The notes under the pieces were generated by a model that worked only from the letters and a program-made list of their open reading frames with translations, searched no databases and was not told the DNA's origin. Below, one piece after another: positions 7,613 through 53,357 of a DNA stretch of 64,000 nucleotides (positions are counted from its first letter, which is position 1; each line of letters begins with the position of its first letter). The stretch is taken from positions 67,784-131,783 of the forward strand of contig JAQUMN010000005.1 in the NCBI GenBank assembly GCA_028718125.1. The letters run 5' to 3'. The translations under genes and the position numbers were made by a program. Source of the stretch: Kiritimatiellia bacterium (GTDB lineage: Bacteria > Verrucomicrobiota > Kiritimatiellia > JAAZAB01).

Positions 7613-7615
7613 GAG

Positions 7616-7813: not shown

Positions 7814-7922
7814 TGTTCCTCTTTGATTTAACGCCGTTATTGCAAATCGGAACCAAGTATTGCATACTCTTACGGTATAGACAAGATAACATGAACTATC
7901 ATCTGCGATTGACAGCTTGCAT

Positions 7923-7940
7923 TCATGCGACGTTGCATGA
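7923..7940. promoter_or_regulatory. Near-perfect 18-bp palindrome, candidate operator
   Basis: TCATGC and GCATGA flank GACGTT; only one base pair breaks the symmetry. It sits in the 252-base gap between two divergent operons. TTGCAT occurs three times within about 80 bases (in the palindrome, just before it, and near 7860). The HTH protein at 7616-7813 is the obvious candidate to bind here, but that is inference. Confidence 0.45.
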
Positions 7941-8065
7941 GGGGCTGGAATAGCGGTAGGTTACGGACTGGACAAGGAAAGAGGTAAAGATGGTCGAGAA
8001 AATCGGAGGGAAGATCGCGATGCAAAAGAGGCCCCCTGCACTCATAGGCGTCTTAGGAGAATGAG

Positions 8066-8992
8066 ATGAGCAAACAATCTTCAAATAGGAGCCACATGCG
8101 TTTCTTTGGAACGACACGTGAGACAGCGTTGCTGGAGCGATCAAAGGAACTTAAAGAGACTTGCAACATCCTTTCAGGAGCACGAGTCTACCTCTCAGGC
8201 CCAATGGACTTTGTAGCTTCCCGGGCGCGGGAGAAGAAATTCGGATGGCGAAACCGGATCGGTGAGTTTCTCCGCCGTCACGACACGGTCGTATACGACC
8301 CTTGGAGCAAACCAACAGTCATCGGAATGCCATACTATGGCAAGGAGGACGAATTTACTCTGGCCAAGCGTGAAAAATGGACGTTTGGTTCTCGGGAAAA
8401 GGACCATCGCACTCGGGAGGAAGTGGGCGAGGAATTTTGGGCCACAGTTCACATTGATCTACGGATGACCGACATGTGTGACTTCGTAATTGCCTACTGC
8501 CCAACAAACGTCTACAGCGTCGGGACTGTGCATGAGATCGTGATGGCGCGACTACAGCAGAAACCTGTCCTGTTGGTTTCGCCTCGGATCACGTTTCCAG
8601 CTTATGATGAATTACGCGACCACCTTAAGAATACGGGGGATAGCACGGCGATAAACCTGCTCAATCGTATGGAACAGGAGATTCCAATCCGACCCAACTC
8701 AAAAGGTGCTCCCAGTATGTGGTATGCGGCACTGCTTCGTCCAGATTACTTCTTCGACGGATTCGGGTTTGCTGAGTTTGCTCCGACGTTTGGGTGGAAA
8801 GCAAGCACGTTTGAAGATCAAGAGAAAAAGAAAAGACCAAAGCGGCCTCTTCTCAGGTATCTGAAAGATCTCAACAGGGAGATTCCAAAGACATATGACC
8901 ACGCGCAGGACAAGTGGGTGGAGAATCCGGACTGGTTAATTCTTGACAGCAATGTTCGTAGTAAGAAACGCCGTTCGAGGAAGAAGGAATGA
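8066..8992 (+). CDS. Nucleoside 2-deoxyribosyltransferase-like protein
   Basis: The 308-residue protein has the signature of the nucleoside 2-deoxyribosyltransferase fold. VYLSGPMDF (about 41-49) is the phosphate/ribose loop. A DMCDFVIAY strand (about 136-144) is followed by VGTVHEIVMA, where E157 fits the catalytic glutamate, and then by a KPVLLVS strand. Family members cleave or swap N-glycosidic bonds of nucleosides; relatives act on nucleotides or NAD-like substrates. The lysine- and arginine-rich tail may bind nucleic acid. The start is supported by TAGGAGA upstream. It overlaps the next gene by ATGA, so it opens a coupled operon with a TIM-barrel protein and nucleases. Fold is likely; substrate is unknown. 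Confidence 0.75.
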   Translation: MSKQSSNRSHMRFFGTTRETALLERSKELKETCNILSGARVYLSGPMDFVASRAREKKFGWRNRIGEFLRRHDTVVYDPWSKPTVIGMPYYGKEDEFTLAKREKWTFGSREKDHRTREEVGEEFWATVHIDLRMTDMCDFVIAYCPTNVYSVGTVHEIVMARLQQKPVLLVSPRITFPAYDELRDHLKNTGDSTAINLLNRMEQEIPIRPNSKGAPSMWYAALLRPDYFFDGFGFAEFAPTFGWKASTFEDQEKKKRPKRPLLRYLKDLNREIPKTYDHAQDKWVENPDWLILDSNVRSKKRRSRKKE

Positions 8993-18327: not shown

Positions 18328-19992
18328 TCAGGCCGGCTCCGAATTGGATGTGGCGGCGGTCAGAAGTTGCTTGCCGGATTCGGTGAGCCGAAGCGCCTTG
18401 GTTCTGCCCTTTGGCGTGAGTTTTTCGATCTCTTCGATCATCCCCATCTCAATCAGGGACCGTTTGGCTTTATCCCCCTGCCGGCCTGAAAGTCCCAGCC
18501 GGGTATATCTGGCAACAACCCCGGAATCCGGGACGAGGGCAACGTCCTTCAGGAATGCCATTTCAGACCCGGTCAATGTTGGAAATGGGTTTTTGTCGGC
18601 TTCCACTGGTTGTTCGGCTGGCCGAATAAGTGGCATCATGACCTGCCGGATGATATCGTCCGTGACGGGAACTGCCGGAATCTTGATCTCCGGCACCCTA
18701 ATCATGAACGGTTCCTTGATTCTGCCCTGTAACTTCACAATAGCCTTACCGATTTCCATAGTACCAAGTGCCAACGGCTGTTCTTCCTGCAAGAGCATGG
18801 CGGCGCTGATCGTCGTCACGTCCTGCTTGCCCTTTAGATTCATGGATATGGTTGTGTAGGTGTTGGCCAGCGCCGTCTTGCTGATTTCTGACGGCATCTG
18901 GTCGAGAAAGACGATTCCTTCCGACATTTCTCGAATCTCCCGGAAGATGACCTCGACGATGGATGCCGGCTGGCCGGATCGTTGGGAAAGGCGTGACAGA
19001 AGATGGTGGGCCTCTTCAATGATCAGGATATGCTTGAGCTGATTTCTCTCGTTCTTGACCATCCGATGTGAATATATCTGGAGCATCAGCATTTCGGAGA
19101 AGAACAGCTTGTCCGCGTGACTGAGGGCTTCAAGCTCCAGGACAGTTGGCTGGGATAACAATTCATTCATGGTCACGTTGGTCCCGGAATTGACGATGCT
19201 GTCCATGGCGCCGAAACACAGGGAATGCACAGCCCTGATGGCTGAGGATAACCACAGGCTGACCCTGCCGGTTGCGGGGATGGTTTTCAGCATGGCCAGC
19301 ACATCCCGGAATGTCGGGTAGCGACTGACCTTGCCGTCATAGACACCGTGCTTCTGGTAGAGTTCGTCCAAGACTGAGGTCAGTAAATATTCAACTCCGG
19401 CCCCGCAAAAATACGCTGCGTTTATAACCGCGACCAGTGCCTTCAGATGCTGCTTGGGATCAATACCTTTTGGCGGAATCAGTGGATTTATCCGGAGTGG
19501 GGCAATATCACGACCGATTGTATACACGCGCAATCCCTGAAATTCCGGAAGGTTTTTGAGCCGACGCCAGGACTGTTTCCAGTCAAGACAGAGCCAGGGA
19601 ATCTCCGCTTTGGTCAGATTCATGGCCAGGAGGTAGCCTGCGTTCGATTTTCCGCTTCCAGTACGGCCAACAAACGAGGTGTGTTGAGCAAGTTCCAGAA
19701 GTCGTAAACCGAAAGGACACAAATCTTTTTCGTTGTAGTGAACCCAGCCCATGAAAATATCGCCTTGGGCTTCCTGTTGAGCCGGCGGGTGGAAAATGGG
19801 CGTGGTGTTCTGGACATCCCTGTTGAGATGGGCGTTTACGAGGAGATTTAGCTGTTCCTCAAGTTCTTCTCTGCCTTCCTCGTCCTGGAAGAGGTATGCC
19901 ATCCAAAATTCGTCCGCCTGCCGGCCGAGAATAGGACGGAGCGCCCTACACCTATCCTGAAATAGTTGTGTCGCCTTGTCCTTTATTGTCAT
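18328..19992 (-). CDS. HerA-like DUF87 ATPase with winged-helix tail
   Basis: The 554-residue protein has a HerA/FtsK-type ATPase core: VGRTGSGKSNAG near 107-118 (Walker A), a CLDWKQSW strand typical of HerA/TraD-like enzymes, and ILIIEEAHHLL near 325 (Walker B with glutamate pair). EIREMSEGIVFLDQMPSEI fits the sensor region. The last 75 residues look like a winged helix (LIEMGMIEEI, LTPKGRTKALRLTE). HerA proteins are hexameric DNA translocases paired with nucleases or small partners. It overlaps the end of the gene at 19952-20530 by 41 bases, so that gene is its probable partner. A second ATPase with the same layout lies at 46269-47969. Confidence 0.82.
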   Translation of the reverse strand: MTIKDKATQLFQDRCRALRPILGRQADEFWMAYLFQDEEGREELEEQLNLLVNAHLNRDVQNTTPIFHPPAQQEAQGDIFMGWVHYNEKDLCPFGLRLLELAQHTSFVGRTGSGKSNAGYLLAMNLTKAEIPWLCLDWKQSWRRLKNLPEFQGLRVYTIGRDIAPLRINPLIPPKGIDPKQHLKALVAVINAAYFCGAGVEYLLTSVLDELYQKHGVYDGKVSRYPTFRDVLAMLKTIPATGRVSLWLSSAIRAVHSLCFGAMDSIVNSGTNVTMNELLSQPTVLELEALSHADKLFFSEMLMLQIYSHRMVKNERNQLKHILIIEEAHHLLSRLSQRSGQPASIVEVIFREIREMSEGIVFLDQMPSEISKTALANTYTTISMNLKGKQDVTTISAAMLLQEEQPLALGTMEIGKAIVKLQGRIKEPFMIRVPEIKIPAVPVTDDIIRQVMMPLIRPAEQPVEADKNPFPTLTGSEMAFLKDVALVPDSGVVARYTRLGLSGRQGDKAKRSLIEMGMIEEIEKLTPKGRTKALRLTESGKQLLTAATSNSEPA

Positions 19993-22654: not shown

Positions 22655-23302
22655 TCACGCAAACAACCGTCCCAGCGCTTTCTCCATGTCTTGGTCGAAC
22701 ACGTGTGTGTAGGCCTCGGTCGTTTTCGTGGACTCATGGCCAAGCTGTCTCTGCACGAGACGCAGGTTGAACTTGCTGGCCTTGAGCAGGAAGCTGGCAT
22801 AGGTGTGCCGCAGGGAATGGATGCCTACGCCTCTGGCCTGACTAATTCCGGCTTTGGCCAGGATGCGCTTATATGATTTCTGCAACGCACGCTTGGACAT
22901 GCGCCGGCCGTTGACACAGAAGACCGGCGCGTCCGGCTCTACGCTCTCGTGCTGGCTGCGCTTCCAGTTGATAAATTCCTGCACAGTGGCACAAAACGCG
23001 GCGCGGATATGCACGAGCCGCTTTTTCCCGCCCTTGCCCTTCCGCACCAGCACCGCACTATGCCCGTTGTTCATCTGAAAATCTCCGCAACACAAATCCG
23101 CAATCTCCTGAACCCGCAGACCGGTTTCGGTCGCCACGCACACCAGAAACCAATCTTTAACCGGCGTCTTTCTGCCCGTGCTTAACGCCTTATCCTTCTC
23201 CTTGCCGGCAATCCTGGTCAGACGATGGAGTTCGGCCTCGTTCAGGAATTTGCTTGTGTCCAGCAGCCACAGGGCTTGGCCCTGTTTTTTTATTAACGCC
23301 AT
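22655..23302 (-). CDS. Short tyrosine recombinase/integrase
   Basis: The 215-residue protein is a tyrosine recombinase catalytic domain. It has an Arg I box (ETGLRVQEIADL), a lysine in the beta hairpin (VRKGKGGKKR), the H-x-x-R box (IHSLRHTYAS), a QLGHES histidine box, and the nucleophile in TTEAYTHVF. About 35 N-terminal residues replace the usual 100-residue SAM-like core-binding domain, so this is a minimal form. It lacks the extra segment of integron IntI. Two 26-bp near-palindromes lie 39 and 267 bases upstream and are good candidates for its binding sites. It could mobilise the neighbouring HerA/Orc1 region or the cassette-like cargo on the other side. Confidence 0.85.
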   Translation of the reverse strand: MALIKKQGQALWLLDTSKFLNEAELHRLTRIAGKEKDKALSTGRKTPVKDWFLVCVATETGLRVQEIADLCCGDFQMNNGHSAVLVRKGKGGKKRLVHIRAAFCATVQEFINWKRSQHESVEPDAPVFCVNGRRMSKRALQKSYKRILAKAGISQARGVGIHSLRHTYASFLLKASKFNLRLVQRQLGHESTKTTEAYTHVFDQDMEKALGRLFA

Positions 23303-39444: not shown

Positions 39445-39871
39445 GTTCCTTATCTGGTACTTGTACCCATAGGAAATAGATACATACCTACAGGTAAGCG
39501 ACTGGACCGCCTTCCGGAAGTAAGTCGCACACCCCCATAAGGCATCCTGAGTATTTAAGCGTTGTCCTTCCGGAGTGAAGACGCTCAATCGCCAAACCGG
39601 AAGATTTATAAGCCTGGTTTCCCTTCCACTCCTGACAAACGACTCATGAGCAGGAGTTTCCTGTTCGCCTAAATCGCACCGCGTATGCGGAACGTAGCGC
39701 TGACGTGGATGTTGCCGCATCCGGAGCGTCTTTGCTTCTCAAGCACGGCAAATTCATTCGGAGCGCAAGCTCCCATTCACTCAACACGGAAAGGAGGTGT
39801 TTCCACCGTTATTCCGGCCAACCGGAACACCTTGCTCATGAGTCAAAACACAAACCGAAAGGAGCCGTTCA
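39445..39871. other. Divergent control region between the small PC4-like gene and ssb
   Basis: No separate gene is supported. On the minus strand CTTAAATAC (39551-39560) and CTTATAAAT (39606-39614) are TATA-like. On the plus strand AAAGGAG at 39857-39863 is the ssb ribosome-binding site, and AAAGGAGGTG at 39790-39799 is a second strong ribosome-binding-like sequence with no good start after it. Confidence 0.45.
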
Positions 39872-40228
39872 ATGAACAAGTTCATAGGTGTCGGCACTCT
39901 GCCGAGAAACGGGATTCTAAACGGATCGGACAAGAAAGTTCTCCGGTTCACACTGGCCACATTAATCGGCCGCAACAAGAAAACGAAGAAAGACATCTGG
40001 TCGTATGTGCCCTGCGTGGTCTTCAAGCCATCGGAGGGGACCATCAACCTTCTGACCGTGGACACCAAGGGTGTGATGATCGGGCTGGAAGGCCGGGTTA
40101 ACACATCTAAGTATGAGGCCAAGGACCACACGACGAAGTACTCAACTGAGGTCGTGGTTGACGAGCGAAGCATTAGGCTCCTCCAAGTCACTGTCAGCGG
40201 CGAACCGGCCAAAGACAAGGTGGCGTGA
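39872..40228 (+). CDS. ssb: Single-stranded DNA-binding protein, SSB family
   Basis: The 118-residue protein is a short OB-fold SSB. MNKFIGVGTLPRNGIL opens strand 1, LRFTLATLIGR follows, then DIWSYVPCVVF (aromatic ssDNA-binding strand), VMIGLEGRVNTSKYE, and a final strand STEVVVDER. The usual acidic C-terminal tip for partner binding is absent (it ends GEPAKDKVA), as in many plasmid SSBs. AAAGGAG precedes the ATG. RadC follows after 3 bases, so the two form a plasmid-maintenance pair. Role: protect single strands during element replication or transfer. Confidence 0.85.
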   Translation: MNKFIGVGTLPRNGILNGSDKKVLRFTLATLIGRNKKTKKDIWSYVPCVVFKPSEGTINLLTVDTKGVMIGLEGRVNTSKYEAKDHTTKYSTEVVVDERSIRLLQVTVSGEPAKDKVA

Positions 40229-40231
40229 TGT

Positions 40232-40693
40232 ATGAACTACGTCACGGCGCTGATTCAACTTCCGCTCATCAGGGAGACCCGGAAAGAACGAATCCGGACT
40301 CCCGAAGATGTGGCACGAGTGTGCTCTGACATTCGAGATCTGGCCCAGGAGACGTTCCACGTCCTGATGCTGAATGCCAAGAATAACCTGATCAATCGGA
40401 TCATGGCGACAGTTGGAATTGTGGATGCGTCCTTGGTTCATCCCAGGGAAATCTTCAGGCAGGCGGTGGCGGAAAACGCGGCGGCGGTTGTGCTCGTGCA
40501 CAATCATCCTTCCGGCGATCCGACACCCAGCGCTGAAGATATCAGGATAACGCGGCAAATAGTCGAGGCCGGCAGAATTCTCGGCATTCAGGTGACGGAT
40601 CACGTCATCATTGGCCGGGAGTCGGAATCGTCACGCGGATTCCTGAGCATGAGAGAACAGGGCCTGTGCGACTTCACAGGGAATAAATCATAG
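40232..40693 (+). CDS. radC: RadC-like JAB-domain protein
   Basis: The 153-residue protein is the RadC/MPN domain alone: RTPEDVARVC at the start, ETFHVLMLNAKNNLI, then VVLVHNHPSGDPTPSAED, the JAMM motif of RadC with H-x-H-P and S-x-x-D, and a terminal VTDHVIIGRES strand. The N-terminal helix-hairpin-helix of chromosomal RadC is missing, as in many plasmid and ICE copies. It starts 3 bases after ssb. RadC function is unsettled; it is a frequent marker of conjugative elements. A second, distinct JAMM protein lies at 49431. Confidence 0.88.
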   Translation: MNYVTALIQLPLIRETRKERIRTPEDVARVCSDIRDLAQETFHVLMLNAKNNLINRIMATVGIVDASLVHPREIFRQAVAENAAAVVLVHNHPSGDPTPSAEDIRITRQIVEAGRILGIQVTDHVIIGRESESSRGFLSMREQGLCDFTGNKS

Positions 40694-43498: not shown

Positions 43499-43936
43499 TC
43501 ATCCACGCATTTTTCTGAAACATTTAACCGCGCGATAACCAGGTTTTGTCCTGAAACGTTTGCTCGGACCACCACGAATTGGCGCACGTTTGTAACTGGC
43601 GGCTATACTCGACAACTCGTTGAGTTGCTGAGCATTTAATTTTACCCCCACTTGAGAAGAAAGCGCTGCAATAATACTACGCTTTGACACTCTTTTTCGT
43701 CGGGCAGCGCCTGATTGCTTGTGTGATTTGCCGATCCATCGAATGAGATTAGACTCTGATTGTTTTCTAATCATTTGTGAAGAGTATTTTGTTAGATAAT
43801 GGACAACATGTTTTTGACCAGGAATTGGGCGAGACAACTCTGTGAAAGCATCAAATGCAAGCTTCGCTTGAGCAGGTGTGATCCCAGCTGCTTTTGCCAG
43901 ATCACGGACTAAAATATGTTTATACTCACAAAGCAT
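43499..43936 (-). CDS. Basic protein of unknown function with N-terminal HTH
   Basis: The 145-residue protein begins with a helical DNA-binding-like segment (HILVRDLAKAAGITPAQAKLAF), similar to the start of HU/IHF or of HTH domains, then becomes strongly basic (KQSGAARRKRVSKRS) and ends in KPGYRAVKCFRKMRG. A second AALSSQVGVKLNAQQLNEL helix pair lies near 90-110. A nucleoid-type or regulatory role is possible. It follows the gene at 43967 on the minus strand by 30 bases. Confidence 0.5.
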   Translation of the reverse strand: MLCEYKHILVRDLAKAAGITPAQAKLAFDAFTELSRPIPGQKHVVHYLTKYSSQMIRKQSESNLIRWIGKSHKQSGAARRKRVSKRSIIAALSSQVGVKLNAQQLNELSSIAASYKRAPIRGGPSKRFRTKPGYRAVKCFRKMRG

Positions 43937-43966
43937 ATTGGGCTCCAGAATGTTGGGTCTTATCCA

Positions 43967-44668
43967 TTAGTAAGCTGCTTTTAAGTCGCTCAGTGCCATT
44001 TGAGCAAATCCCTCAATTGCTTGCTCTGCGGTTTGTTGCGTCAGTCCCCGACTAACGAGAAAAGTGACAACCTCGGGTTGCGATCTTCGTCTCATGATTT
44101 GAGAAATAATTTCCCACGGAGAATACTTTTGAGAACCGATCCAAGCTGGTTTCGGGCCGGGCAATTTCGGTAACGGCCCTTCAGGAATTATCTTAACCTC
44201 AGATTTTGAAGGTTGAATGCCGCATAAACCGAGATTTACCTTCAGGCTGAGACGATCTTCTGTTCCAGAACCATACAGTTCAAGCCACTTTTCAAATATT
44301 TCCTTCAGTTCCTTAGATGCTTCCCGCTTTGATTGGCAGCGAAATGCCTTTCCAACAATGTTAAGTCCACGCCCCCAAGACCGCATGATCGCTATGTAGG
44401 GATATACGGGCGGTTGCTTGCCATCCATCGAATAGATATGTGTTAGTTGATGAATGCGATTAGCGAAAGATTTTACAGGGACAAGATTGCACGCACCCGT
44501 AACGAGATGCCGTTCCACAACGGCGCCTATCATGCCTAAGAGAAACCGCCCGCTTGTGCTGAGCGCCTTAATAGTCACACCCCCAGCCGCAAGCTCTTGA
44601 CAGCCTGGGACAAGGCTTGTTGTTAGCCGAATCTCCTGCTTATGGAGGTCTATCTCAAGGCGATTCAT
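43967..44668 (-). CDS. Protein of unknown function
   Basis: The 233-residue protein opens with two beta strands (LEIDLHKQEIRLTT). A hydrophobic helix GRFLLGMIGAVVERHLVTG follows, and then a charged helical region around REASKELKEIFEKW. A proline-rich stretch (EGPLPKLPGPKP) links to a C-terminal helix bundle with two repeats resembling SPWEIISQIMRRRSQPEVV. No family recognised. The first gene of a two-gene minus-strand unit inside a plus-strand module. Confidence 0.5.
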   Translation of the reverse strand: MNRLEIDLHKQEIRLTTSLVPGCQELAAGGVTIKALSTSGRFLLGMIGAVVERHLVTGACNLVPVKSFANRIHQLTHIYSMDGKQPPVYPYIAIMRSWGRGLNIVGKAFRCQSKREASKELKEIFEKWLELYGSGTEDRLSLKVNLGLCGIQPSKSEVKIIPEGPLPKLPGPKPAWIGSQKYSPWEIISQIMRRRSQPEVVTFLVSRGLTQQTAEQAIEGFAQMALSDLKAAY

Positions 44669-44785
44669 CTACGGTGCCATCGGATTGTGAACAGTTCTTA
44701 CCAGGTCATTCCTTCGCTTTACGGCTCAATATATCAGAGACTTATCTCAGAGCAAAAGAAATAAACCATTCAGACAGGTAAGTCC

Positions 44786-45178
44786 GTGAAACTGGATTAT
44801 AGAACAGAAGAAACGGGTCACCAGCAAGGGGTTGATCATCAGGGTCAATCCTGGGTCGGCTTCGACTTTTCTGCTCTTAACGACCATGAAAACTTCAACG
44901 ATCCCGCCTTTCGACGTTTCATCGAGGCGCTGGATTTTATGGCTCGCGGGATTGCCTTGGAAATGTTTGTCACCGTGTTGGCGAGGCATGACCACGCACA
45001 GATGAAGGCATTCGAAATGCACATGCGGAAGATGAGCGACCACCAGATAGGTGATGAGCTTCACGTGGATCACAAGACTGCTAAACGGTGGTACGAGGAT
45101 TTGATGGCAACTGTCCGAGAGATTTCCCCAATGGGGCGCGGCAAGAACCCGTCCCGTGTTGAAAATCGAACGCATTGA
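44786..45178 (+). CDS. Small HTH-tailed protein
   Basis: The 130-residue protein starts at a GTG with AGGTAAG before it; confidence in the start is moderate. The middle (FDFSALNDHENFNDPAFRRF, then EALDFMARGIALEMF) is helical. The end, MSDHQIGDELHVDHKTAKRW, is a helix-turn-helix like those that recognise DNA in sigma-70 region 4 or small regulators. No family recognised. It begins the plus-strand run leading to the RING-like, ATPase and ubiquitin-like genes and might regulate it. Confidence 0.55.
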   Translation: MKLDYRTEETGHQQGVDHQGQSWVGFDFSALNDHENFNDPAFRRFIEALDFMARGIALEMFVTVLARHDHAQMKAFEMHMRKMSDHQIGDELHVDHKTAKRWYEDLMATVREISPMGRGKNPSRVENRTH

Positions 45179-45223: not shown

Positions 45224-45619
45224 ATGGATGACATCATTCACAGACTCTACGAAGCGTACATAACCTGGGCCGGAACCATACCGGACTTGAAGCTAATCAC
45301 TATCATCCGGTTGACCCTCCTGTTCGCCGTGCCGACGGCTATCTATTACTGGGCATTCATCTCCGGCCGCCGCGAAGGATTCGGCCGTTTTTTAGCATCG
45401 GTACTGGCAGATGGACTGATTCTTGCCATTGTCATTCGAGTGCCGCACGATGTGACAGCCAGGGCTTGGATTCTCACCGTATGTGTTCTGTTGCTCGCCT
45501 ATCTGCCGGGAGTGCATCCCTTTTTCGTTTACCGCGAAGCTGGACGTCAAAAACGGCTTCGGACAGGCCTCTATGTGTTAATGGGCATTCTGCTATTGGC
45601 CGGACTGTTATGGAGTTAG
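45224..45619 (+). CDS. Small four-helix membrane protein
   Basis: The 131-residue protein has hydrophobic segments near 25-45 (ITIIRLTLLFAVPTAIYYW), 55-70 (FLASVLADGLILAIVI), 80-98 (AWILTVCVLLLAYLPG) and 113-130 (GLYVLMGILLLAGLLW), with positively charged loops. GAAGGAG precedes the ATG. It is followed after 9 bases by the RING-like gene, so the two are co-expressed. Similar small membrane proteins flank transfer and secretion ATPases. No specific family recognised. Confidence 0.7.
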   Translation: MDDIIHRLYEAYITWAGTIPDLKLITIIRLTLLFAVPTAIYYWAFISGRREGFGRFLASVLADGLILAIVIRVPHDVTARAWILTVCVLLLAYLPGVHPFFVYREAGRQKRLRTGLYVLMGILLLAGLLWS

Positions 45620-45628
45620 GAGATCACT

Positions 45629-46258
45629 ATGTTTTCCAGAATTAAAACTTGGATACGACGAGTGTGGCGGCGATTTGAGGGGCCGCCTAATGTGCCCATC
45701 GTTGTCCAGCCGCACGTGACGGGTACAGAAGGGCCATATGGGAGAGACCGCCGGGCAGAAAACCGCGACGTTGAAGATGCTGATTTTCGTCGAATGGATC
45801 CGGCTGAGGCGGCACGGGAAATTTTTGCACCCACCCACAATGAGGAAGAAAGCCATGGGTTCGTTGAAGTTGGCCCAGATGGCAACGTCCCGCATCGGGG
45901 GGAGAGGTGGGACCGTGAGCACAATTCCATGCGGAGGAGAATCCGGAGCTTCATGCTTGTCACCTGTTCCAAGAGCGTTGTGAGTTCCGCCGAAGAAATC
46001 AATGGTATTTGCAATGAATGTCACGGGCATGAATCGGCTGTCGTCAGATGTTCGATATGTGGAGTGATCCTCTGCCAGCTTCACGCCTATGTCCTGGAGC
46101 ATCCTGCCGGACCGGCCATTTATTGCAAGGCACATCTCAAAGAGGCCATGGACAACTGGGATACCTGGGAAGCCTACGACATGCAACGGGGAGTGAAGCC
46201 CAATCGCAGCGTATATCCCGGCAAACCTCATGCCTTGGCAAGATACGTACAAAAATAA
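45629..46258 (+). CDS. RING/B-box-like zinc protein, candidate E3-like factor
   Basis: The 209-residue protein has a basic start (RIKTWIRRVWRRF) that could contact a membrane or nucleic acid. A disordered acidic linker follows, then a cysteine/histidine module at 128-169: C128-C131, C141-C144, C149-H152, C166-H169. Eight ligands with spacing 2-9-2-4-2-13-2 fit a two-zinc cross-brace treble clef of the RING/B-box/ZZ group. It lies 2.2 kb upstream of a Ubl-E2-JAMM-E1 operon on the same strand and just before the ATPase gene. Binuclear treble clefts have been described in prokaryotic ubiquitin-like loci, so an E3-type adaptor is a reasonable hypothesis; a plain structural zinc finger is the alternative. 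Confidence 0.6.
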   Translation: MFSRIKTWIRRVWRRFEGPPNVPIVVQPHVTGTEGPYGRDRRAENRDVEDADFRRMDPAEAAREIFAPTHNEEESHGFVEVGPDGNVPHRGERWDREHNSMRRRIRSFMLVTCSKSVVSSAEEINGICNECHGHESAVVRCSICGVILCQLHAYVLEHPAGPAIYCKAHLKEAMDNWDTWEAYDMQRGVKPNRSVYPGKPHALARYVQK

Positions 46259-46268
46259 GGTGGGTGAA

Positions 46269-47969
46269 ATGAACAACGGCAACATAGACAGAAAAACCCG
46301 GTATGAACGGGCCATAATGGAACTGACGATGGCGATTAAGTCGGGGAAAATCACCGATCCCCTGATCCAGGAATACTGGCAGCGTGGATTGTTGCCAGGC
46401 GAGCAGGGAGCAAAAGCGCAGGCGATGCTGGAAAATATACTGATGGCACCCTCAATCCTCGCCGATCTGAAGTCGTCAGCCGAGCCGCCGGAACCCGACA
46501 TAGACCCCAAGCTGTTGGTGTTCATCGGCCGACGACGGGCCTTGCGCCGGATGACTGGGATTTTGAAGAAGTTGCTGACCATGCACCTGCTTATTCAAGG
46601 CCCCACGGGCTCTGGGAAGACCAACCTGATCTGGTTCATTATCCAGCAATTGATCGAGTTCGGCCTGAAAGTAGTTTTTCACGACCATAAAAATGAGGGA
46701 CGCAAGTTATTGCGGCGATATTCCAATGTTGTCGTTCTGCGGGTATCCGACTTCCGGGAAAACTTTCTCAAACCGGTGGGAGACCCGAAACAGTATTTTT
46801 CGACATTCTGGAGCGAGTTCGCGCGCGCCTACAGGATTCGCCGCGAGACAGCCGTGAAACTCGTCGGCATTTCAATGCGGGTTCTTGCCGGCTTAAAGCC
46901 TGGCGATCCCCATCCCAGTCTTTATGACTTCCCCCACATGTTGCACGAGTTGGCGAAACGTTATAACGACCCGACACTGACAACCGCCGCTGTGGCTCTT
47001 GAATCGCTGAATGCGACGCTTGGAGAAGCGGCCACAGTCCGGGACGGTCCCTGCGCCGACGATCTATTTAACATTGTTGTGGTGCAATGCCACGGACTGC
47101 CCGCTGAGTTTCTCCAATTTTTTATGGCTATTCGTTTATTCCGCAAGCATGTGAAGGCCATTGCCCAGGGCCACACCGGCGAATTGACGTCTGTGATCGT
47201 CAGTGACGAAGGAGGTGTCGAGTTCGCCAAAGAGTATGCGGCGGAGGCCGGTTCCGGATACATTCCGCCACAGAAACGGTTAATCACTCAATTCCGGAGC
47301 ACGGGAACCGGATTAATCATCGCCACTCAGAGCGTTAACGCCATTGACCCCGCCGTTATCGCAAACGTCGGATCATTCGTTTGCTTAAGGGCTCAGTTAG
47401 ATGCTGATGTACGCATCAGTACACGTTTATTAGGCAAGTCCGAGGAACAGAGCGACGATGTCCGAAACATCCCGCGATGGTCCGGCCTGCTTAAAACGCC
47501 GAGCCATTCAGGCGCCGTCCTTGTCGATATACCGGAGGTCAACATGGGCGACTACATGAGTGACCAGGAACTAGACCGCTTAAACCACAACGCGCTTGAG
47601 CGGTTGAATTCTCATACGATTTTTGCGCCGATCCATCAGGATGCCGGAGCGCCAATATCCTATAGGGATATCCTCGGCGAGACGATGCCCCCCGCTCCAT
47701 CAGTATCATCGTCGGATGCATTATTTGACTTCAGGGCCGAGCATACGAGCTTCATTCGAGAAATCATTACGCATCCTGATGCCAGTGTCGTCGAACATTA
47801 CGTGAACCTTGGGTGGAGTGCCGGACGGGGTAATCGTGTGAAATCCGATCTCATTGACAATGGCATCCTTAAGTCACAGCGCCAGACTTCGCGCAATGGC
47901 CGACCAATCGAGCAACTCGTGCTGACGGAAAAAGGGAGGGAACTTTTCGATGAAACGTCAAAAGCATAG
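46269..47969 (+). CDS. HerA/TraD-like ATPase with winged-helix tail
   Basis: The 566-residue protein starts at the ATG at 46269, after AAGGTGGG; the frame is open further upstream but overlaps the previous gene. QGPTGSGKTNLIW near 109-121 is Walker A and SVIVSDEGG near 308-316 Walker B. TGTGLIIATQSVNAID is the sensor strand of HerA/FtsK and coupling proteins. The C-terminal 75 residues form a winged helix (LIDNGILKSQ, LVLTEKGRELF), the same plan as the ATPase at 18328. Probably a hexameric DNA motor for conjugation, partition or end processing. It overlaps the next gene by 20 bases. Confidence 0.8.
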   Translation: MNNGNIDRKTRYERAIMELTMAIKSGKITDPLIQEYWQRGLLPGEQGAKAQAMLENILMAPSILADLKSSAEPPEPDIDPKLLVFIGRRRALRRMTGILKKLLTMHLLIQGPTGSGKTNLIWFIIQQLIEFGLKVVFHDHKNEGRKLLRRYSNVVVLRVSDFRENFLKPVGDPKQYFSTFWSEFARAYRIRRETAVKLVGISMRVLAGLKPGDPHPSLYDFPHMLHELAKRYNDPTLTTAAVALESLNATLGEAATVRDGPCADDLFNIVVVQCHGLPAEFLQFFMAIRLFRKHVKAIAQGHTGELTSVIVSDEGGVEFAKEYAAEAGSGYIPPQKRLITQFRSTGTGLIIATQSVNAIDPAVIANVGSFVCLRAQLDADVRISTRLLGKSEEQSDDVRNIPRWSGLLKTPSHSGAVLVDIPEVNMGDYMSDQELDRLNHNALERLNSHTIFAPIHQDAGAPISYRDILGETMPPAPSVSSSDALFDFRAEHTSFIREIITHPDASVVEHYVNLGWSAGRGNRVKSDLIDNGILKSQRQTSRNGRPIEQLVLTEKGRELFDETSKA

Positions 47970-48405
47970 TCACGGTCACGAATTGACTGACCATCGCCAA
48001 GTCAAGGCCGATGGACAGGCAATGCTCATCGCGGCCGGGTTTCACCTGGTGCGGTGCGAATACCGGAACGCAGATTTGGTCGGGATTCGCAGGATCGGCA
48101 ACCGAATCCACGTTCTAACTGTGGAATTCGAGCGGACGGTACGGAATGTAATCCGGAATATCCACAGGAATCTGGCGAATGGCAGCGATTTTAATTTGGA
48201 AGTGTGCATGACGCCGTCAATCCAAGCTGCAATGCAACGATTAATTCAACGAAAATTAAGTTCCGATGAACAAAAAAAGGTCCGTGTGATACAGAAAGAC
48301 GAGTTGAACGTCGGGCTTTTACGCTCGTTGAACGGAGAAACAGGCGTTGATTCAGGGTTAGTTCAGGTTTATTCGCCAAGTTTATTCCGAGGAAAATCGA
48401 GTTAA
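47950..48405 (+). CDS. Unknown protein coupled to the HerA-like ATPase
   Basis: The 151-residue protein begins with a histidine-rich basic segment (KRQKHSHGHELTDHRQVK). Its core, RNADLVGIRRIGNRIHVLTV followed by EFERT and a helix VRNVIRNIHRNL, resembles the alternation of a PD-(D/E)XK nuclease (D...ExE) without a clear lysine. The rest is helical and ends in SPSLFRGKSS. HerA enzymes often partner with a small nuclease such as NurA, and the 20-base overlap with the ATPase implies a complex. No family recognised; the nuclease idea is weak. Confidence 0.5.
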   Translation: MKRQKHSHGHELTDHRQVKADGQAMLIAAGFHLVRCEYRNADLVGIRRIGNRIHVLTVEFERTVRNVIRNIHRNLANGSDFNLEVCMTPSIQAAMQRLIQRKLSSDEQKKVRVIQKDELNVGLLRSLNGETGVDSGLVQVYSPSLFRGKSS

Positions 48406-48435
48406 TTCGAGATGATTCGCGAAGTATCGAACCCG

Positions 48436-48446
48436 AAATATAAAAT
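48436..48446 (+). promoter_or_regulatory. TATA-like box before the ubiquitin-like operon
   Basis: AAATATAAAAT preceded by CCCG sits about 53 bases before the GTG start of the Ubl gene, which would put a start site near 48466 if TATA-driven. Marks a probable new transcript beginning after the ATPase operon. Confidence 0.4.
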
Positions 48447-48448
48447 GG

Positions 48449-48476
48449 CGTGACAGCAGCAGTAAAAACAGTCACG
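48449..48476. promoter_or_regulatory. Inverted repeat upstream of the Ubl gene
   Basis: CGTGAC and GTCACG are separated by 16 bases and lie just before AAAGGAGGTGA, the Ubl ribosome-binding site. Could be an operator or leader hairpin; 6-bp arms are short, so chance is possible. Confidence 0.35.
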
Positions 48477-48493
48477 GAAAGGAGGTGAAGTAA

Positions 48494-48748
48494 GTGAACT
48501 CTAAAAACATAACAATAGTGAAGCCCGGTGCAGGCAACAACGCTCAAAGCGAAGCCTACGACATCGCGATCCAACCCGGACATACGGGGAAACAAGTGAT
48601 GGAGCAACTGAAAATTGGGAGTGAATACACCCTGTCTAAGGGCGACGGCAAGACGGTTGATCTGTCGGCGGATATTTTCCCGCTCGTGGAGAACGGAGAA
48701 AAGTTATTCGCTACGACACCGGCGACGGTTGGACAGTTGGCGGCATAA
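48494..48748 (+). CDS. Ubiquitin-like beta-grasp protein
   Basis: The 84-residue protein starts at a GTG with AAAGGAGGTGA eight bases before it. EAYDIAIQPGHTGKQVMEQL is the first hairpin and helix of a ubiquitin fold, followed by YTLSKGDGKTVDLS, then FPLVENGEKLFATTP, the last strand, ending in TVGQLAA. This order (strand-strand-helix-strand-strand) matches prokaryotic ubiquitin-like proteins linked to E1/E2/JAMM genes. The C-terminus lacks the usual GG; a single glycine lies four residues from the end, so the JAMM protein may trim the last four. It is followed after 2 bases by the E2-like gene. The call rests strongly on gene order. Confidence 0.75.
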   Translation: MNSKNITIVKPGAGNNAQSEAYDIAIQPGHTGKQVMEQLKIGSEYTLSKGDGKTVDLSADIFPLVENGEKLFATTPATVGQLAA

Positions 48749-48750
48749 CA

Positions 48751-49407
48751 ATGATACAGGGGATGACGGCTGTGAGTAATGATTTTGACATTCTTGAATA
48801 TATAAAGAAGAACCCTGATTGGTGGAAACAGTCCCGGCCAACATACTCGTTTGCGCTGGAGTCATTGAATCAGGATTCGGAAGACGACCGTATCCAGGGA
48901 TTGTCAAACGTCATGCTCCGCCGTCATCACCCTGTTATCAATATCCAACCGCCGATTACCATTAGGCAAGTTCGTCATATAACTATACCGAATGGAGAAT
49001 GGCCAGGTCATCCGAGAGAGAGGAATCCACATGCTGCGCCGCCCATCGTCGTGAATTCTGTAAGGTCTTATGCCCGGAAGTCCCATACTTCACGATACTG
49101 GCAGGATGCTGGGTGGAAGCGGAGATATGAAGATGGTTATCAATGGCTTAGCGGTCACTATAAGGCCAAAGGTAATTTATATAGGGGATCGATAAAACTG
49201 GCGGACAGTGTCGTTCAACCTATTGAGTATTACATTTATGATCCGCCACGCGTCATCCTTAGCGGACCTCATGGGGCGTGTTATCAGTGGCGGATATCGT
49301 TGGAACCAAACAAATATTTAATTCATTTTAGTAAAATGCCCGCAGACATTGACAGCGGCATTATTCAGATTGAACAAAATTTATCGGAAGCGTTGGAGAT
49401 GGAGTAA
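48751..49407 (+). CDS. E2-like ubiquitin-conjugating protein
   Basis: The 218-residue protein has its only cysteine at 177, in PPRVILSGPHGAC. This echoes the PPKV...H-P-N...C segment of E2 enzymes, with strands GNLYRGSIKLADSVVQPIEY before and YLIHFSKMPADIDSG, then a long helix, after. The N-terminal 100 residues are an extra region with proline-rich linker. It is placed 2 bases after the Ubl and 23 before the JAMM gene. The start could instead be the GTG seven codons later. Role inferred: accept the Ubl from the E1 on C177 and pass it on. The fold match is by motif, so the call is moderate to good. Confidence 0.68.
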   Translation: MIQGMTAVSNDFDILEYIKKNPDWWKQSRPTYSFALESLNQDSEDDRIQGLSNVMLRRHHPVINIQPPITIRQVRHITIPNGEWPGHPRERNPHAAPPIVVNSVRSYARKSHTSRYWQDAGWKRRYEDGYQWLSGHYKAKGNLYRGSIKLADSVVQPIEYYIYDPPRVILSGPHGACYQWRISLEPNKYLIHFSKMPADIDSGIIQIEQNLSEALEME

Positions 49408-49430
49408 GTCCATCGAAAGGAGGAACAACC

Positions 49431-50120
49431 ATGGAAAACATAAAGATAAATAAAGACATGGGTACCATCCATGATTTCTTGGCAGGAACGGCCAACAGTT
49501 TGGAGGCCAGACTATTGGATGCTTGCCGGCAGGATAACGAACCTGCGGCGCAGGCGACTCTTGCCGAGTTGCTCAAGATTTCGCGTGTCAAGTACGCATC
49601 GGAAAGAGTCATGCAGGATATGTCAAAAGAAAACACGATCCCGACATATCTGATAAGTCCACTGACAATCCAGGAAGCTTATAGCGTTTTGACGAAAACC
49701 GCGGACGAAGCCCTGTTGTTCATGACAGGGCTGGTCATTGAAAACAGGAAATATGCCGTTACACGGTTATTAGAGTTCGAACTGAAAAGGCAGTCCGTGA
49801 TAGCGGCAGAGGGTGAACAGCAGGCGGTGACCCGCCTTCTGATTTGGTTGCACAATCACGATCATAAACTCCTAATGACCTGGCATAGTCACCCGGGTTC
49901 TGGCGCAAATTCGACCACGCCATCGGCAATCGACATGGATTTCCATCGGCGGCTTGAAGCCGGGAATTATCCAGTCATCGGAGGCATCGTGAATCGGCAG
50001 GGATATGTGCGCTTCTTCTCGTACAAGCGGCCGTTCAAGGTTTCGATCTACGGAAAAGGAATGGAGGTGGCAGATGAACAACATAATGTCTTCAAGCTTG
50101 ATACAAGCCATGCGGTTTAG
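49431..50120 (+). CDS. JAMM/MPN+ metallopeptidase (Ubl deconjugase type)
   Basis: The 229-residue protein carries the JAMM motif WHSHPGSGANSTTPSAIDMD: H152, H154, S165 and D168, with E93 (in EALLFMTG) as the probable catalytic glutamate. An N-terminal helical extension of about 70 residues precedes the MPN fold. Enzymes of this group cleave isopeptide bonds or trim Ubl precursors. AAAGGAGG precedes the ATG, and the last 47 bases overlap the E1-like gene. In the operon it should mature the Ubl (whose end is TVGQLAA) and reverse conjugates. All metal ligands are present, so it is likely active. Confidence 0.88.
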   Translation: MENIKINKDMGTIHDFLAGTANSLEARLLDACRQDNEPAAQATLAELLKISRVKYASERVMQDMSKENTIPTYLISPLTIQEAYSVLTKTADEALLFMTGLVIENRKYAVTRLLEFELKRQSVIAAEGEQQAVTRLLIWLHNHDHKLLMTWHSHPGSGANSTTPSAIDMDFHRRLEAGNYPVIGGIVNRQGYVRFFSYKRPFKVSIYGKGMEVADEQHNVFKLDTSHAV

Positions 50121-50883
50121 GTCCAAAGGCTTTCACCCGGAGAAATTGGAGGAAGGCCACCCGAGCGCAACGGCCAGTCAGGAGAAACTGCCGGGATTCA
50201 ACCAGCAGAACCTCCGGGATGCCAGGATTCAGATGATTGGATGCGGCGGCATTGGGGGATCTATTTTGGATCACCTCGTGCGGAAGGGATGCGGACGCGT
50301 TGACGTTTACGATGGCGATAGCGTCGAAATCGGCAATCTTGGACGTCAAAAGTTCTTCCCGTCCGATGTCGGACAGAACAAGGCGATCTGCGGCGCCCGA
50401 AACGCCATCCGCCATGCTTCCTGGCCGACCGAGATCGTGGCACATCCCATGTGGTTCGAGGATGCGACAAGACGCGGTTTGGTTGGGGGCGCAAGCGCCG
50501 CCATCGTCGGGCCTGACAGGGATAGCACAAGGGTCTTTTGCAGCAAATATTTCTATAAAATGTGTCCGGTAATTTCTGTTGGAATCGGCACACGGGCCGA
50601 ACACGGATACGTATTTGTGCAAAAGCCCGGAGCGACATGCTTCGCTTGTATCTTCCCTGGTGCCATAACAGACCAGCGCACGCCATGCCCCGGCACGCCG
50701 GCGATGATTGATATTCTGCTGGTTATCGCCGGCCTCGTGCTTACGGCATTGGATTCTCTCCTGATGCCGGGACGCGCGATTAACTGGAATTACTGGGACA
50801 TCTATCCATCGGGAGCCATTCCAACTCAGCCATTGATGATTGAACGACGAAAGGATTGTCCGATCTGCGGGAAGTTTAACTGA
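50074..50883 (+). CDS. E1-like ThiF-family activating enzyme
   Basis: The 269-residue protein starts at the ATG at 50074, with GGAGGTGG before it, inside the JAMM gene. IQMIGCGGIGGSILDH is the Rossmann ATP loop. GRVDVYDGDSVEIGNLGRQ and FPSDVGQNKA supply the acidic and arginine/lysine residues typical of E1/ThiF. CFACIFPG and a terminal CPICG give two CxxC pairs for structural zinc. TPCPGTPAMIDILLVIAG contains a cysteine where E1-like enzymes place the thioester nucleophile. Expected reaction: adenylate the Ubl C-terminus, then thioester. Last gene of the four-gene Ubl operon. Confidence 0.88.
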   Translation: MNNIMSSSLIQAMRFRSKGFHPEKLEEGHPSATASQEKLPGFNQQNLRDARIQMIGCGGIGGSILDHLVRKGCGRVDVYDGDSVEIGNLGRQKFFPSDVGQNKAICGARNAIRHASWPTEIVAHPMWFEDATRRGLVGGASAAIVGPDRDSTRVFCSKYFYKMCPVISVGIGTRAEHGYVFVQKPGATCFACIFPGAITDQRTPCPGTPAMIDILLVIAGLVLTALDSLLMPGRAINWNYWDIYPSGAIPTQPLMIERRKDCPICGKFN

Positions 50884-50907
50884 CATATAAATAAGGAGGT
50901 CACCGTC

Positions 50908-51258
50908 ATGATTATTCTTTACATGTTTTTATCGGCAGTGTGCGCATTGGGGTTCGTCTACCTGTTTGAAATAGGATGGATAAATCGTCCGCCCCACATT
51001 GCCTACCAGTGGCCGAAGGGACGGGCGATGCGATTCATGTGGGCCGCAATCGGCATCATAATGGCAATCAGTCAGATCCCATTGGGAATTCTGGCGGTTC
51101 TTGCCTGTTTGCCCGTGTGTTTAGCCCATATATCGTTAGTGGACCGAAATCCAACAATGCGGATCAACGTAAGCGACGTGGTCGGGCAAATCTCTCAGAC
51201 GGCGAGGTCATCATTCCGCCGCTTCAGGGATCGGACCCGAATCGGACCTCATTACTGA
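50908..51258 (+). CDS. Small membrane protein
   Basis: The 116-residue protein has a first hydrophobic segment (IILYMFLSAVCALGFVYLF) and a second long one near 46-75 (WAAIGIIMAISQIPLGILAV, then LACLPVCLA), followed by a basic cytoplasmic tail. AAGGAGG precedes the ATG and the gene follows the E1 by 24 bases, so it is probably in the same transcript. No family recognised. It could anchor the conjugation machinery or be part of a transfer channel. Confidence 0.65.
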   Translation: MIILYMFLSAVCALGFVYLFEIGWINRPPHIAYQWPKGRAMRFMWAAIGIIMAISQIPLGILAVLACLPVCLAHISLVDRNPTMRINVSDVVGQISQTARSSFRRFRDRTRIGPHY

Positions 51259-51271
51259 AACGAGGTGAAAT

Positions 51272-51652
51272 ATGAACGTGTGTTTATCAATCAACGCCCT
51301 TTTGGCCGGAATAATCGGTGTTATCACCGCAATAGTCAGTTGGCGGGTGTTGCGCCACGCATTAAAAATCACCAATCCGGTCTTGGGTATATGTATTGGT
51401 GCGCTGACCGGCTTAGGGCTGGCGAATCTGGGAGGGATTATGACGGGACTCTTAATCCCCTACGAGACGCTCGGGATTGTGATTGTTTTGATGTTTCTTA
51501 TAGCCTCGTTGCTAAACCGGAAGAAGGACAAGAAAAAGAAACCGTCATCGCCTGAACCCATGAATAATCGATGGGAGTCAGAAGATCCCTGGACAAGAGA
51601 AATTCGACTGAAAGTAAGCATGGTGCGCAAGTTAAAGGCCGGGAAGCGGTAA
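51272..51652 (+). CDS. Small membrane protein with charged tail
   Basis: The 126-residue protein has three hydrophobic segments: near 8-25 (LLAGIIGVITAIVSW), 38-58 (LGICIGALTGLGLANLGGI) and 62-82 (LLIPYETLGIVIVLMFLIAS). A strongly basic run RKKDKKKK and a soluble tail of about 35 residues follow. The tail probably faces the cytoplasm. It follows the previous membrane protein by 13 bases. No family recognised; the pair resembles small subunits of transfer systems. Confidence 0.65.
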   Translation: MNVCLSINALLAGIIGVITAIVSWRVLRHALKITNPVLGICIGALTGLGLANLGGIMTGLLIPYETLGIVIVLMFLIASLLNRKKDKKKKPSSPEPMNNRWESEDPWTREIRLKVSMVRKLKAGKR

Positions 51653-51680
51653 TGGATATGGACGTTGTTTTCAAACAGGA

Positions 51681-52127
51681 ATGGATTCCGCAATGGAAAT
51701 GGACCTCGAGCATATGTCAAGGGATGCCAGGATGTGGCGGATCGGCCACATCCTGTCGAAGGGTATTTCCCTTATGCTCGCCAAGGAAATGGAGGAACGG
51801 GAAGCGCTGGCACGCAATGCACTTGCCACGCAATTCGGCGAAAATAACCGCGAAAGACAAACGACCAGCTTGTGTGATGACAGCAAGGCAATCCTGGACT
51901 ATCTCAGGCGGGTGGGTCCAGCGTCACCGACTAATATCTGGCGCTACACGGGAATATCAAGGACGACCGTGTTCCGGCGCTTAAAGGGAATGCATTCCGC
52001 AGGCCTCCTTAGGAAAAGCGGGAGCACATCTGCGGTTCGATATGCAATTGACGAAGCCACTGGCAAGAAACCGCATCCATCCGTGGATAAAGAATCAACG
52101 GTATTGATTTCGGTTGTAACGCAATGA
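51681..52127 (+). CDS. Winged-helix transcription regulator-like protein
   Basis: The 148-residue protein has a helical N-terminal 65 residues and a winged helix at about 68-120: KAILDYLRRVGPASPTNIWR, YTGISRTTVFRRL, GLLRKSGSTSAVRYAID. The recognition helix TTVFRRLKGMH is typical of MarR/ArsR-like folds that act on DNA. The ATG at 51681 is weakly supported; one at 51693 is possible. Its stop overlaps the Dam gene start (ATGA). It may regulate the element's operons. Confidence 0.65.
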   Translation: MDSAMEMDLEHMSRDARMWRIGHILSKGISLMLAKEMEEREALARNALATQFGENNRERQTTSLCDDSKAILDYLRRVGPASPTNIWRYTGISRTTVFRRLKGMHSAGLLRKSGSTSAVRYAIDEATGKKPHPSVDKESTVLISVVTQ

Positions 52128-52684
52128 AAATTTCAAGCACAGGCGGGGGATTTTTGCATGATACCTGGGAGTCTCGCCAGAAAGACGAGTGGCTGACTCC
52201 ACCGGGGATCATTCATGCTCTGGGAGATTTTGACCTTGATCCCTGTGCGCCTGTTCACCGACCATGGAGTACAGCAACACATCATTACACCGTTCTTGAT
52301 GATGGGCTGATAAAGCCTTGGTTCGGTCGAGTGTGGATGAACCCGCCTTACGGGCGAGAGACTGGAATATGGCTCAATAAGTTGGCCACTCATGGCGACG
52401 GAATTGCCCTCGTTTTCGCAAGGACGGAAACCAAAATGTTCTTTAAATTCATCTGGAGTGAGGCTAACGCAATACTGTTCATGCGCGGCCGACTGGCGTT
52501 TTATCACGCCAGTGGACTGCAAGGCGGTCATGCCGGTGCGCCGTCATGTCTGATCGCTTATGGGGACCGAAACGTCAGGGCTTTAAAAGGGAGCGGGATC
52601 GTAGGCGCATTGATTATCGGCCGGCGCAAATCCCGTTCACGTTGGACACTGGATCGAGTGGCACGAGATGTGTGGGCTGATTAA
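52124..52684 (+). CDS. Phage-type DNA N6-adenine methyltransferase (Dam)
   Basis: The 186-residue protein fits the small Dam family of phages and plasmids: DEWLTPPGIIHALGDFDLDP at the start (SAM-binding, DPC), VWMNPPYGRETGIW with the catalytic NPPY near 74, and ALVFARTETKMFF and ILFMRGRLAFYH as later strands. These proteins are orphan methylases, usually GATC or non-specific, that hide element DNA from host restriction. It closes the plus-strand run started by the Ubl operon and overlaps the winged-helix gene by 4 bases. Confidence 0.85.
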   Translation: MKISSTGGGFLHDTWESRQKDEWLTPPGIIHALGDFDLDPCAPVHRPWSTATHHYTVLDDGLIKPWFGRVWMNPPYGRETGIWLNKLATHGDGIALVFARTETKMFFKFIWSEANAILFMRGRLAFYHASGLQGGHAGAPSCLIAYGDRNVRALKGSGIVGALIIGRRKSRSRWTLDRVARDVWAD

Positions 52685-52737: not shown

Positions 52738-53157
52738 TCAAGATGTCTGCGTAAGTTCAGCCTGCAGAAGCGCAAACGCGCGAAGCTGAGCAGGCTTGCT
52801 CGTGAGTTCAAGCAGTGTACGGAGTTTGCGTTCGGTTATGATGCGGATCTGCGCGGGTCTCTGCAGGCTTGTGACAAACGAAATAATCGGTTCGGGCAGG
52901 TCGAGCAGATTCATAATTTGAGTCACGCGGGCGCGGGAAAGCCCCGTATTTCGGGCGATTGAGGCCATAGTAAGCGTTATATCGGCTGTCAGCATCTGCC
53001 GCCATTCAAGGGCCGTATGGATAGGATGGCGAACGGGCGATTGACATACCATCTTCTTCCCGCCGCACTCTTTCATGTTGTCTTGAGAGCGTTCGGGATA
53101 CGGGATCGGATGAACGATGAAAGGACGCGCGCCCCATCTGGCAAAGGGGATGCCCAT
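52738..53157 (-). CDS. Recombinase-associated HTH protein (ParB/KorB-like HTH)
   Basis: The 139-residue protein has a HTH core, LTMASIARNTGLSRARVTQI, followed by MNLLDLPEPIISFV and a C-terminal helix region with RIITERKLRTLLELTSKP. Proteins of this pattern often follow serine-recombinase genes in uncultured bacteria, but no recombinase is present here, so it may be the leftover of a decayed or excised element. N-terminal residues 1-45 are proline- and cysteine-rich. It is convergent with the Dam gene, at the right-hand edge of the plasmid-like module. Confidence 0.6.
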   Translation of the reverse strand: MGIPFARWGARPFIVHPIPYPERSQDNMKECGGKKMVCQSPVRHPIHTALEWRQMLTADITLTMASIARNTGLSRARVTQIMNLLDLPEPIISFVTSLQRPAQIRIITERKLRTLLELTSKPAQLRAFALLQAELTQTS

Positions 53158-53205
53158 GACGATGGCGGGTAGTTCATAGTTCGTACCGGGTTGCTGTCTG
53201 CGGAG

Positions 53206-53357
53206 CCCAGTAGTAGAACGGAGTTCACTACTGGGCGGTGCAGTGAAGCGAAGCTTCTACTGCACTGACTCCCTTGTTTCTCTCTTTCCCCGCTTCGCTA
53301 GAATCAAAGGTTCCGTTTTCTGTCTTGAAACCCCACAGTGAGCTATGCTCTACTGTG
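53206..53357. repeat. Three similar hairpins before the GIY-YIG gene
   Basis: Hairpin 1 (53206-53235) pairs CCCAGTAGT with ACTACTGGG plus inner GAAC/GTTC. Hairpin 2 (53238-53265) pairs GTGCAGTGAAGC with GCTTCTACTGCAC apart from one bulged T. Hairpin 3 (53334-53357) pairs CACAGTGAGC with GCTCTACTGTG, again with a bulged T. All share a CAGT...ACTG stem, a bulge and a 3-base loop, like a REP-type family. Confidence 0.7.

Follow-up and report, generated by a model that had tools for sequence, protein, structure and literature searches.

Cassettes built around a ubiquitin-like protein (Ubl) have been recorded on mobile elements of bacteria since 2006, and their use to these elements is, to our knowledge, largely untested. 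Judged by parts list, three described systems appear nearest to the cassette presented here. The first is operon type 6d of Iyer 2006, which consists of separate Ubl, E2-like, JAB and E1 genes and is associated with ParB and an alpha-helical protein (PMC1779556). We infer that the PRTRC cassette (NCBIfam TIGR03736-03738), known from annotations of plasmids and of an ICE (PMC3826726, PMC7466150), is of the same kind. The second is the Ubl tri-ligase of the FtsH-ternary conflict systems, which PMC7159879 (Kaur 2020, citing Burroughs 2011) describes as a Ubl-E2 fusion with separate E1 and JAB and a RING-type E3. The third is Bil. According to PMC11354881, BilA is made of two tandem Ubl domains, BilB carries a CEHH motif (C, E at +6, H at +8 and H at +13, the last being His151), and BilD combines inactive and active adenylation domains with a Cys domain.

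We analysed a window of 64,000 nucleotides, meaning the whole stretch of DNA, from a Kiritimatiellia bacterium of the phylum Verrucomicrobiota. All four open reading frames of the cassette were confirmed, closely spaced and on the same (+) strand. The Ubl gene (48494..48748) starts at a GTG preceded by a strong Shine-Dalgarno sequence and encodes 84 aa, with a conserved C-terminal TPxxVG ending at residue 80 and then a removable-looking QLAA tail. A gap of 2 bp separates its stop codon from the start of the gene for the E2-like protein (48751..49407, 218 aa), in which the N-terminal 100 aa are variable and a C-terminal domain of about 110 aa is conserved. The third gene (49431..50120) encodes a JAMM/JAB peptidase of 229 aa with an N-terminal extension, and the fourth (50074..50883) an E1-like adenylyltransferase of the ThiF/MoeB type with 269 aa. 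The longest frame of the latter opens at 50005. However, the gene most likely begins at the ATG at 50074, overlapping the JAMM gene, since this ATG has a good ribosome-binding site (GGAGGTGGCAG upstream) and is also used in a second copy of the cassette. Matches above the Pfam cut-off were obtained for the third gene (Prok-JAB, 3.8e-7) and the fourth (ThiF, 8.8e-24). For the Ubl and the E2-like protein, neither Pfam nor PADLOC gave a family, and NCBIfam offered no meaningful match. An Rfam search was empty. The initial annotation had described four closely spaced or overlapping genes for a Ubl, an E2-like protein, a JAMM protease and a ThiF/E1 enzyme, and this set was upheld as a coherent cassette. 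We give a probability of about 0.62 to the reading that the cassette is a reversible Ubl conjugation cascade and part of an integrated mobile element's backbone.

A second copy of the cassette (L005, G000:C5:23.1-25.5 kb) was found in the same genome, on the same contig about 93 kb upstream. Positions 45266-51976 of the window are 77% identical to it, and the single genes reach 83% (Ubl), 59% (E2-like), 75% (JAMM), 83% (E1) and 82% (HerA-like ATPase, see below). Between the copies, dN/dS is 0.11-0.18 for the four cassette genes, which are, by this measure, under purifying selection. The SSB and RadC genes further upstream are 96-98% identical (dS 0.05-0.17) whereas the cassette genes have diverged (dS 0.8-1.6), and the element is therefore a mosaic. 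The cargo between the two shared blocks differs as well: at 43499-45178 the window holds an HTH gene and small ORFs, and the second copy has a 1236-aa NTPase-HEAT (STAND/NACHT-like) protein there (L005:4077-7787), so that this place is a cargo slot. Two tracts, at 39701-40000 over SSB and at 51701-51976 over a winged-HTH gene, are 96-100% identical between the copies with flanks at about 77-85%, which reads as recent recombination or gene conversion. Directly left of the second copy lies a truncated integrase end (C5:11657-11803).

Beyond this genome, four divergent cassettes were found, three in MAGs of the class Lentisphaeria and one in an IMG/VR contig. A phylum-wide JAMM search gave a Victivallaceae MAG (G533), which belongs to another class than the window, a search of that class gave G630 and G651, and an IMG/VR search with a five-row E1 alignment as query gave locus L041, along with a PRTRC control, L042. 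Viral scans run with single or two-row queries gave no match, and later ones matched L041 again. All six cassettes (window, L005, L033, L039, L040 and L041) contain Ubl, E2-like, JAMM and E1 in this order, and phmmer comparisons made pairwise homology among their proteins clear. E1 and JAB are separate genes in every one of them. Separate genes also encode the Ubl and its E2-like partner in the window, L005, L040 and L041, and in L033 and L039 a single polypeptide comprises both; this fusion in two of six cassettes is direct evidence that the two are partners. Because each cassette gene has a 59-83% identical copy under constraint, and more distant homologues keep the gene order, the cassette does not consist of chance ORFs. 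It is rare: E2-like searches matched one of 346 genomes in its own class, namely the genome itself, and two of 358 in a phylum sample, both previously known. The sole match of a scan of genome contigs was L034, which is the same contig as L033. Using tblastn, nothing related was found in plasmids with JAMM, HerA or the Ubl-E2 fusion as query (HerA retrieved one ATP-binding protein with 22% identity) or in phages with JAMM, and E1 retrieved generic ThiF/MoeB matches only. The L040 JAMM gene (1413-2064) and the L033 HerA gene (7253-8991) each read as two frames, which we read as draft-assembly errors or decay.

The Ubl residues V79-G80 are invariant across the six cassettes: in a five-sequence alignment TPxxVG ends at the invariant Gly80, and VG is also present in L041. 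After this Gly follow QLAA, RLAA, F, IPGNKF or the fused E2-like domain, and a common Gly with unrelated tails is the pattern that would be expected of a JAMM-processed precursor. An AlphaFold2 model of the L033 fusion showed a beta-grasp domain that a linker of low confidence joins to the E2-like domain. Foldseek matched this model to Caldiarchaeum ubiquitin (E 1.7e-4), K11 di-ubiquitin (7.8e-4) and 8tyx, a bacterial Ubl-DUB complex (1e-3). A Foldseek search of viral structures gave no significant match. The ubiquitin fold proposed for the 84-residue protein is predicted from its L033 homologue, with PDB E values of 2e-4 to 1e-3.

We then come to the neighbourhood, in which the genes described between 39872 and 52684 are on the + strand. 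Upstream of the Ubl gene lies a HerA-like DNA-translocase ATPase (46272..47969; start uncertain, 46230 or about 46272) that matches DUF87 (2.8e-7) and PADLOC mad8 (8.4e-17) and has homologues in L033 and L039, the latter at 1e-12 (phmmer, database size set to 1e8). Between the two is a 151-aa protein (47950..48405) of no Pfam family, with a copy in L005 (dN/dS 0.20). The idea that it corresponds to the C-terminal portion of HerA from L039 was rejected, as phmmer gave no support. The HerA gene is preceded by a protein (45629..46258) with a CxxC..CxxC..C..[HC]..CxxH pattern and the invariant residues C128/C131/C141/C144/C149/C166/H169, a candidate cross-brace (RING/B-box-like) zinc module. Its B-box matches are weak, its best PDB profile match is TRIM28 (E 0.004), and NSE1, p44 and BIRC RING profiles matched above 0.1; it could be an E3 or an adaptor. 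Before it comes a multi-helix membrane protein (45224..45619) with positional equivalents in L033 and L039 and a weak phmmer link to L033, and before that an HTH protein (44786..45178) related to those directly upstream of Ubl in L033 and L040 (phmmer 2e-4 to 6e-4). As in the window, the genes upstream in L033 and L039 encode a membrane protein, a zinc protein and a HerA-like ATPase. Downstream of the cassette, 50908..52684 encodes two small membrane proteins, the winged HTH (51681) and a Dam methylase (52124; 3.4e-12), followed at 52738-53157 by an HTH_ParB domain protein, the sole ParB-type match seen.

The SSB, RadC, HerA-like and Dam neighbours listed in the initial annotation were all confirmed by Pfam (SSB 4e-11 and RadC 4e-42, at 39872..40693), but SSB and RadC, part of the element backbone, lie about 8 kb upstream. 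Of the HerA/RadC linkage expected to recur, the HerA part was present in both of the distant loci of sufficient length, and RadC linkage was not observed among those distant loci that were read. The label plasmid-like found no support: the cassette lies in a contig of 134.8 kb, one of 92 in the assembly, and among the element genes examined no replicase or relaxase was identified. Nor was an integrase identified in the element proper. A tyrosine integrase (PF00589) is encoded on the minus strand at 22655-23302. A 112-bp sequence at 53096-53207, possibly an edge of the element, recurs at C5:29667 and C5:34716 with 79-81% identity. Elsewhere in the window, another HerA-like ATPase (DUF87, sub-cutoff) occupies an unrelated position at 18328-19992, and a type IIG restriction-methyltransferase adjoins an HKD+SNF2 helicase at 978-7612, forming a defence island at the left end.

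That the cassette serves the mobile element is plausible rather than proven, because L041 departs from the pattern: in its 70 kb contig no HerA or zinc gene was detectable. Close to this cassette lie primase-like genes, a DUF262-like gene and a type I R-M-like cluster, and a Mu-like prophage is found at a greater distance (identities partly read from sequence). This 'viral' contig (IMGVR_UViG_3300015370_001134; L041, L043-L045), in which what resembles a Mu-like prophage adjoins the Ubl cassette and the type I R-M-like cluster, looks to be partly host or island DNA. The main and serious rival to service of the element is one of purpose and not of chemistry, namely that the same conjugation would, as it does in Bil and CBASS, protect the host or the element from phages or rival elements. 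The second copy does swap its cargo for the NTPase-HEAT protein, beside L041 are the R-M-like cluster and the DUF262-like gene, with defence-model matches, the HerA-like ATPase resembles mad8, and the window also holds the type IIG R-M gene and the SNF2 defence helicase. However, in its own genome the cassette belongs to the conserved backbone, with SSB/RadC on one side and the downstream genes on the other, and it is the variable slot that holds the defence-like gene; neighbours of the defence type also differ between loci. We regard defence as a possible purpose, although a tentative one.

The E2 role bears on the chemistry itself. The C-terminal domain of the E2-like protein contains the motif PP-x5-8-H174-x2-C177, plus H192. 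H174-x2-C177 is invariant in all six cassettes at about 25% identity, in agreement with the conservation of C177 that had been anticipated, and the six also have in common W...GW, PP, a C-terminal helix and a His located 12 or 15 residues after the Cys. The order of strand, PP, H and C parallels that of E2s, as in the L039 text DPPQKLLHEHPHGPC. The core of the window protein was modelled with pLDDT 84 and pTM 0.78, and its best PDB match in Foldseek was CdnG-E2 of CBASS (E 0.18, not significant), with FANCL (UBC/RWD) chains and another CdnG-E2 entry near the top of the same list. A search for bacterial E2s with PF14461 gave one match, too few for an hhalign profile. Since the best PDB match is not significant, the E2 label is based on the order of the motifs, the outline of the fold and the context; a UBC-like fold is probable from the model, and the domain looks like a divergent conjugating enzyme outside every Pfam family, which may have a prior description in the literature. 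Alternatively, C177 would be structural or substrate-binding, and E1 would pass the Ubl directly to targets in a SAMP/Urm1-like manner. The non-significant fold match, the very small domain and the lack of relation to any Pfam E2 family speak for this. The invariant H-x2-C at such low identity, the E2-like motif order, two CBASS E2 entries and FANCL among the top matches, and the fusion to Ubl in two loci speak against it, and we hold it to be unlikely.

The two remaining proteins have well-preserved active sites. The five intact JAMM homologues all share the ligands E93, H152, H154, S165 and D168, bearing out the full set of metal ligands first noted, and the profile match to Rpn11 is 0.005. 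E1 (numbered without the start Met) contains GxGGxG, D79/D81/N87/R90/Q91/K102, the candidate thioester Cys C204, which is invariant across the six cassettes, and the Zn cysteines C188/C191/C261/C264; its profile matches are MoeB and Uba1, at about 1e-17. Sulfur transfer is a frequent role of MoeB-type E1s, and a MoeB/ThiF-type E1 could make a Ubl thiocarboxylate for metabolite or nucleic-acid modification, as in ThiS/MoaD/PdtH-like pathways. However, we consider this very improbable, as no rhodanese, cysteine desulfurase or biosynthetic gene was seen, the E2-like protein is always present and a JAMM is present too. A decayed or non-functional relic, for which the split L033 HerA and L040 JAMM frames might speak, is scarcely credible, given that such frames occur in draft MAGs and that the window and L005 genes are intact with dN/dS of 0.11-0.18.

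For the favoured reversible cascade, gene content, conservation, recurrence and the predicted Ubl fold are the basis from which we infer the chemical steps, the E2 role and the target. JAMM would trim the Ubl precursor, or cut the natural Ubl-E2 fusion, after Gly80. The MoeB-type E1 would adenylate Gly80 and form a thioester on C204, from which the Ubl would move to the minimal E2-like protein, at C177; H192, H174 or both would act as catalytic partner. The Ubl would then be joined to a lysine on a protein of the element or the host, perhaps under the guidance of the cross-brace zinc protein, and JAMM would later remove it. The target suggested by the recurrence of the HerA-like ATPase and the membrane protein is the element's DNA-handling or transfer apparatus, and by linkage the HerA-like ATPase is the best candidate; this makes the hypothesis about the target concrete. 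A bolder version, which we think doubtful, is that of a new minimal (~110-aa) E2 family, made in some elements as a JAMM-cut Ubl-E2 pro-fusion, that with RING/B-box-like zinc and membrane proteins controls a HerA-like translocase; if true, DNA transfer of mobile elements would be under a ubiquitin-like switch. The cassette is very small and very rare, its E2-like protein is outside every Pfam family, and separate genes and fusion both occur naturally, so that processing, thioester relay and partner identity are directly testable.

Finally, we compared the cassette with the known systems. In type II CBASS, JAMM reverses conjugation. The cassette differs from Cap2/Cap3 and CdnG-E2 in that no CD-NTase was recognised in the element, E1 and E2 are separate and a dedicated Ubl is present; the best fold match of its E2-like protein is, without significance, CdnG-E2. 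Like Bil, it unites Ubl, E2, JAMM and E1 in one operon, its Ubl model (L033) matches 8tyx, and its E2 Cys with a His 12-15 residues downstream resembles BilB with its His151. However, its Ubl is single (84 aa) and not tandem, its E2-like protein has no CEHH and conserves Cys, His at +12/+15 and His at -3, its E1 is one 269-aa ThiF/MoeB-type domain without IAD/AAD pseudodimer and Cys domain, and the BilC profile matches its JAMM weakly (E 0.24). The close Bil-type kinship of the initial annotation was therefore not borne out, and membership was rejected on all three of tandem Ubl, CEHH and BilD architecture. With Iyer 6d/PRTRC, the cassette shares separate genes for E1, JAB, an E2-like protein and a Ubl whose C-terminal Gly is conserved, a location on mobile elements and a conserved His downstream of the E2 Cys. 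In contrast, its E2 is minimal by comparison and has an invariant extra His 3 residues before the Cys, where theirs lacks an upstream His, and its JAMM has no invariant Arg or Trp in the N-terminal 85 residues, where the JAB N-terminal domain has both strictly conserved. No PRTRC HMM passed its cut-off on the cassette, the only match being ThiF (40.7 vs 144.75 bits). In the control L042, a 101.6 kb IMG/VR contig with a PRTRC-like cassette (PRTRC_C, PRTRC_B, ThiF) at 4819-8783, ThiF was above cut-off and PRTRC_B and PRTRC_C below (E 4.5e-21 and 3.3e-11); the PRTRC_B model TIGR03737 matched 0 of 20 relatives and no control genome, and is uninformative on absence. PRTRC membership was rejected on the HMM scores and the JAB N-terminal Arg/Trp. 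As in the Ubl tri-ligase, E1 and JAB are separate, two of the six cassettes have a Ubl-E2 fusion and the zinc protein may be RING-like, but the cassette E2 matches no Pfam E2 family, and a HerA-like ATPase stands where FtsH, vWA-MoxR, EAD1 and caspase were not recognised among the element genes scanned. Altogether, as the Bil and PRTRC tests failed and the tri-ligase comparison is mixed, we file the cassette as a variant of the bacterial Ubl conjugation cassettes on mobile elements.
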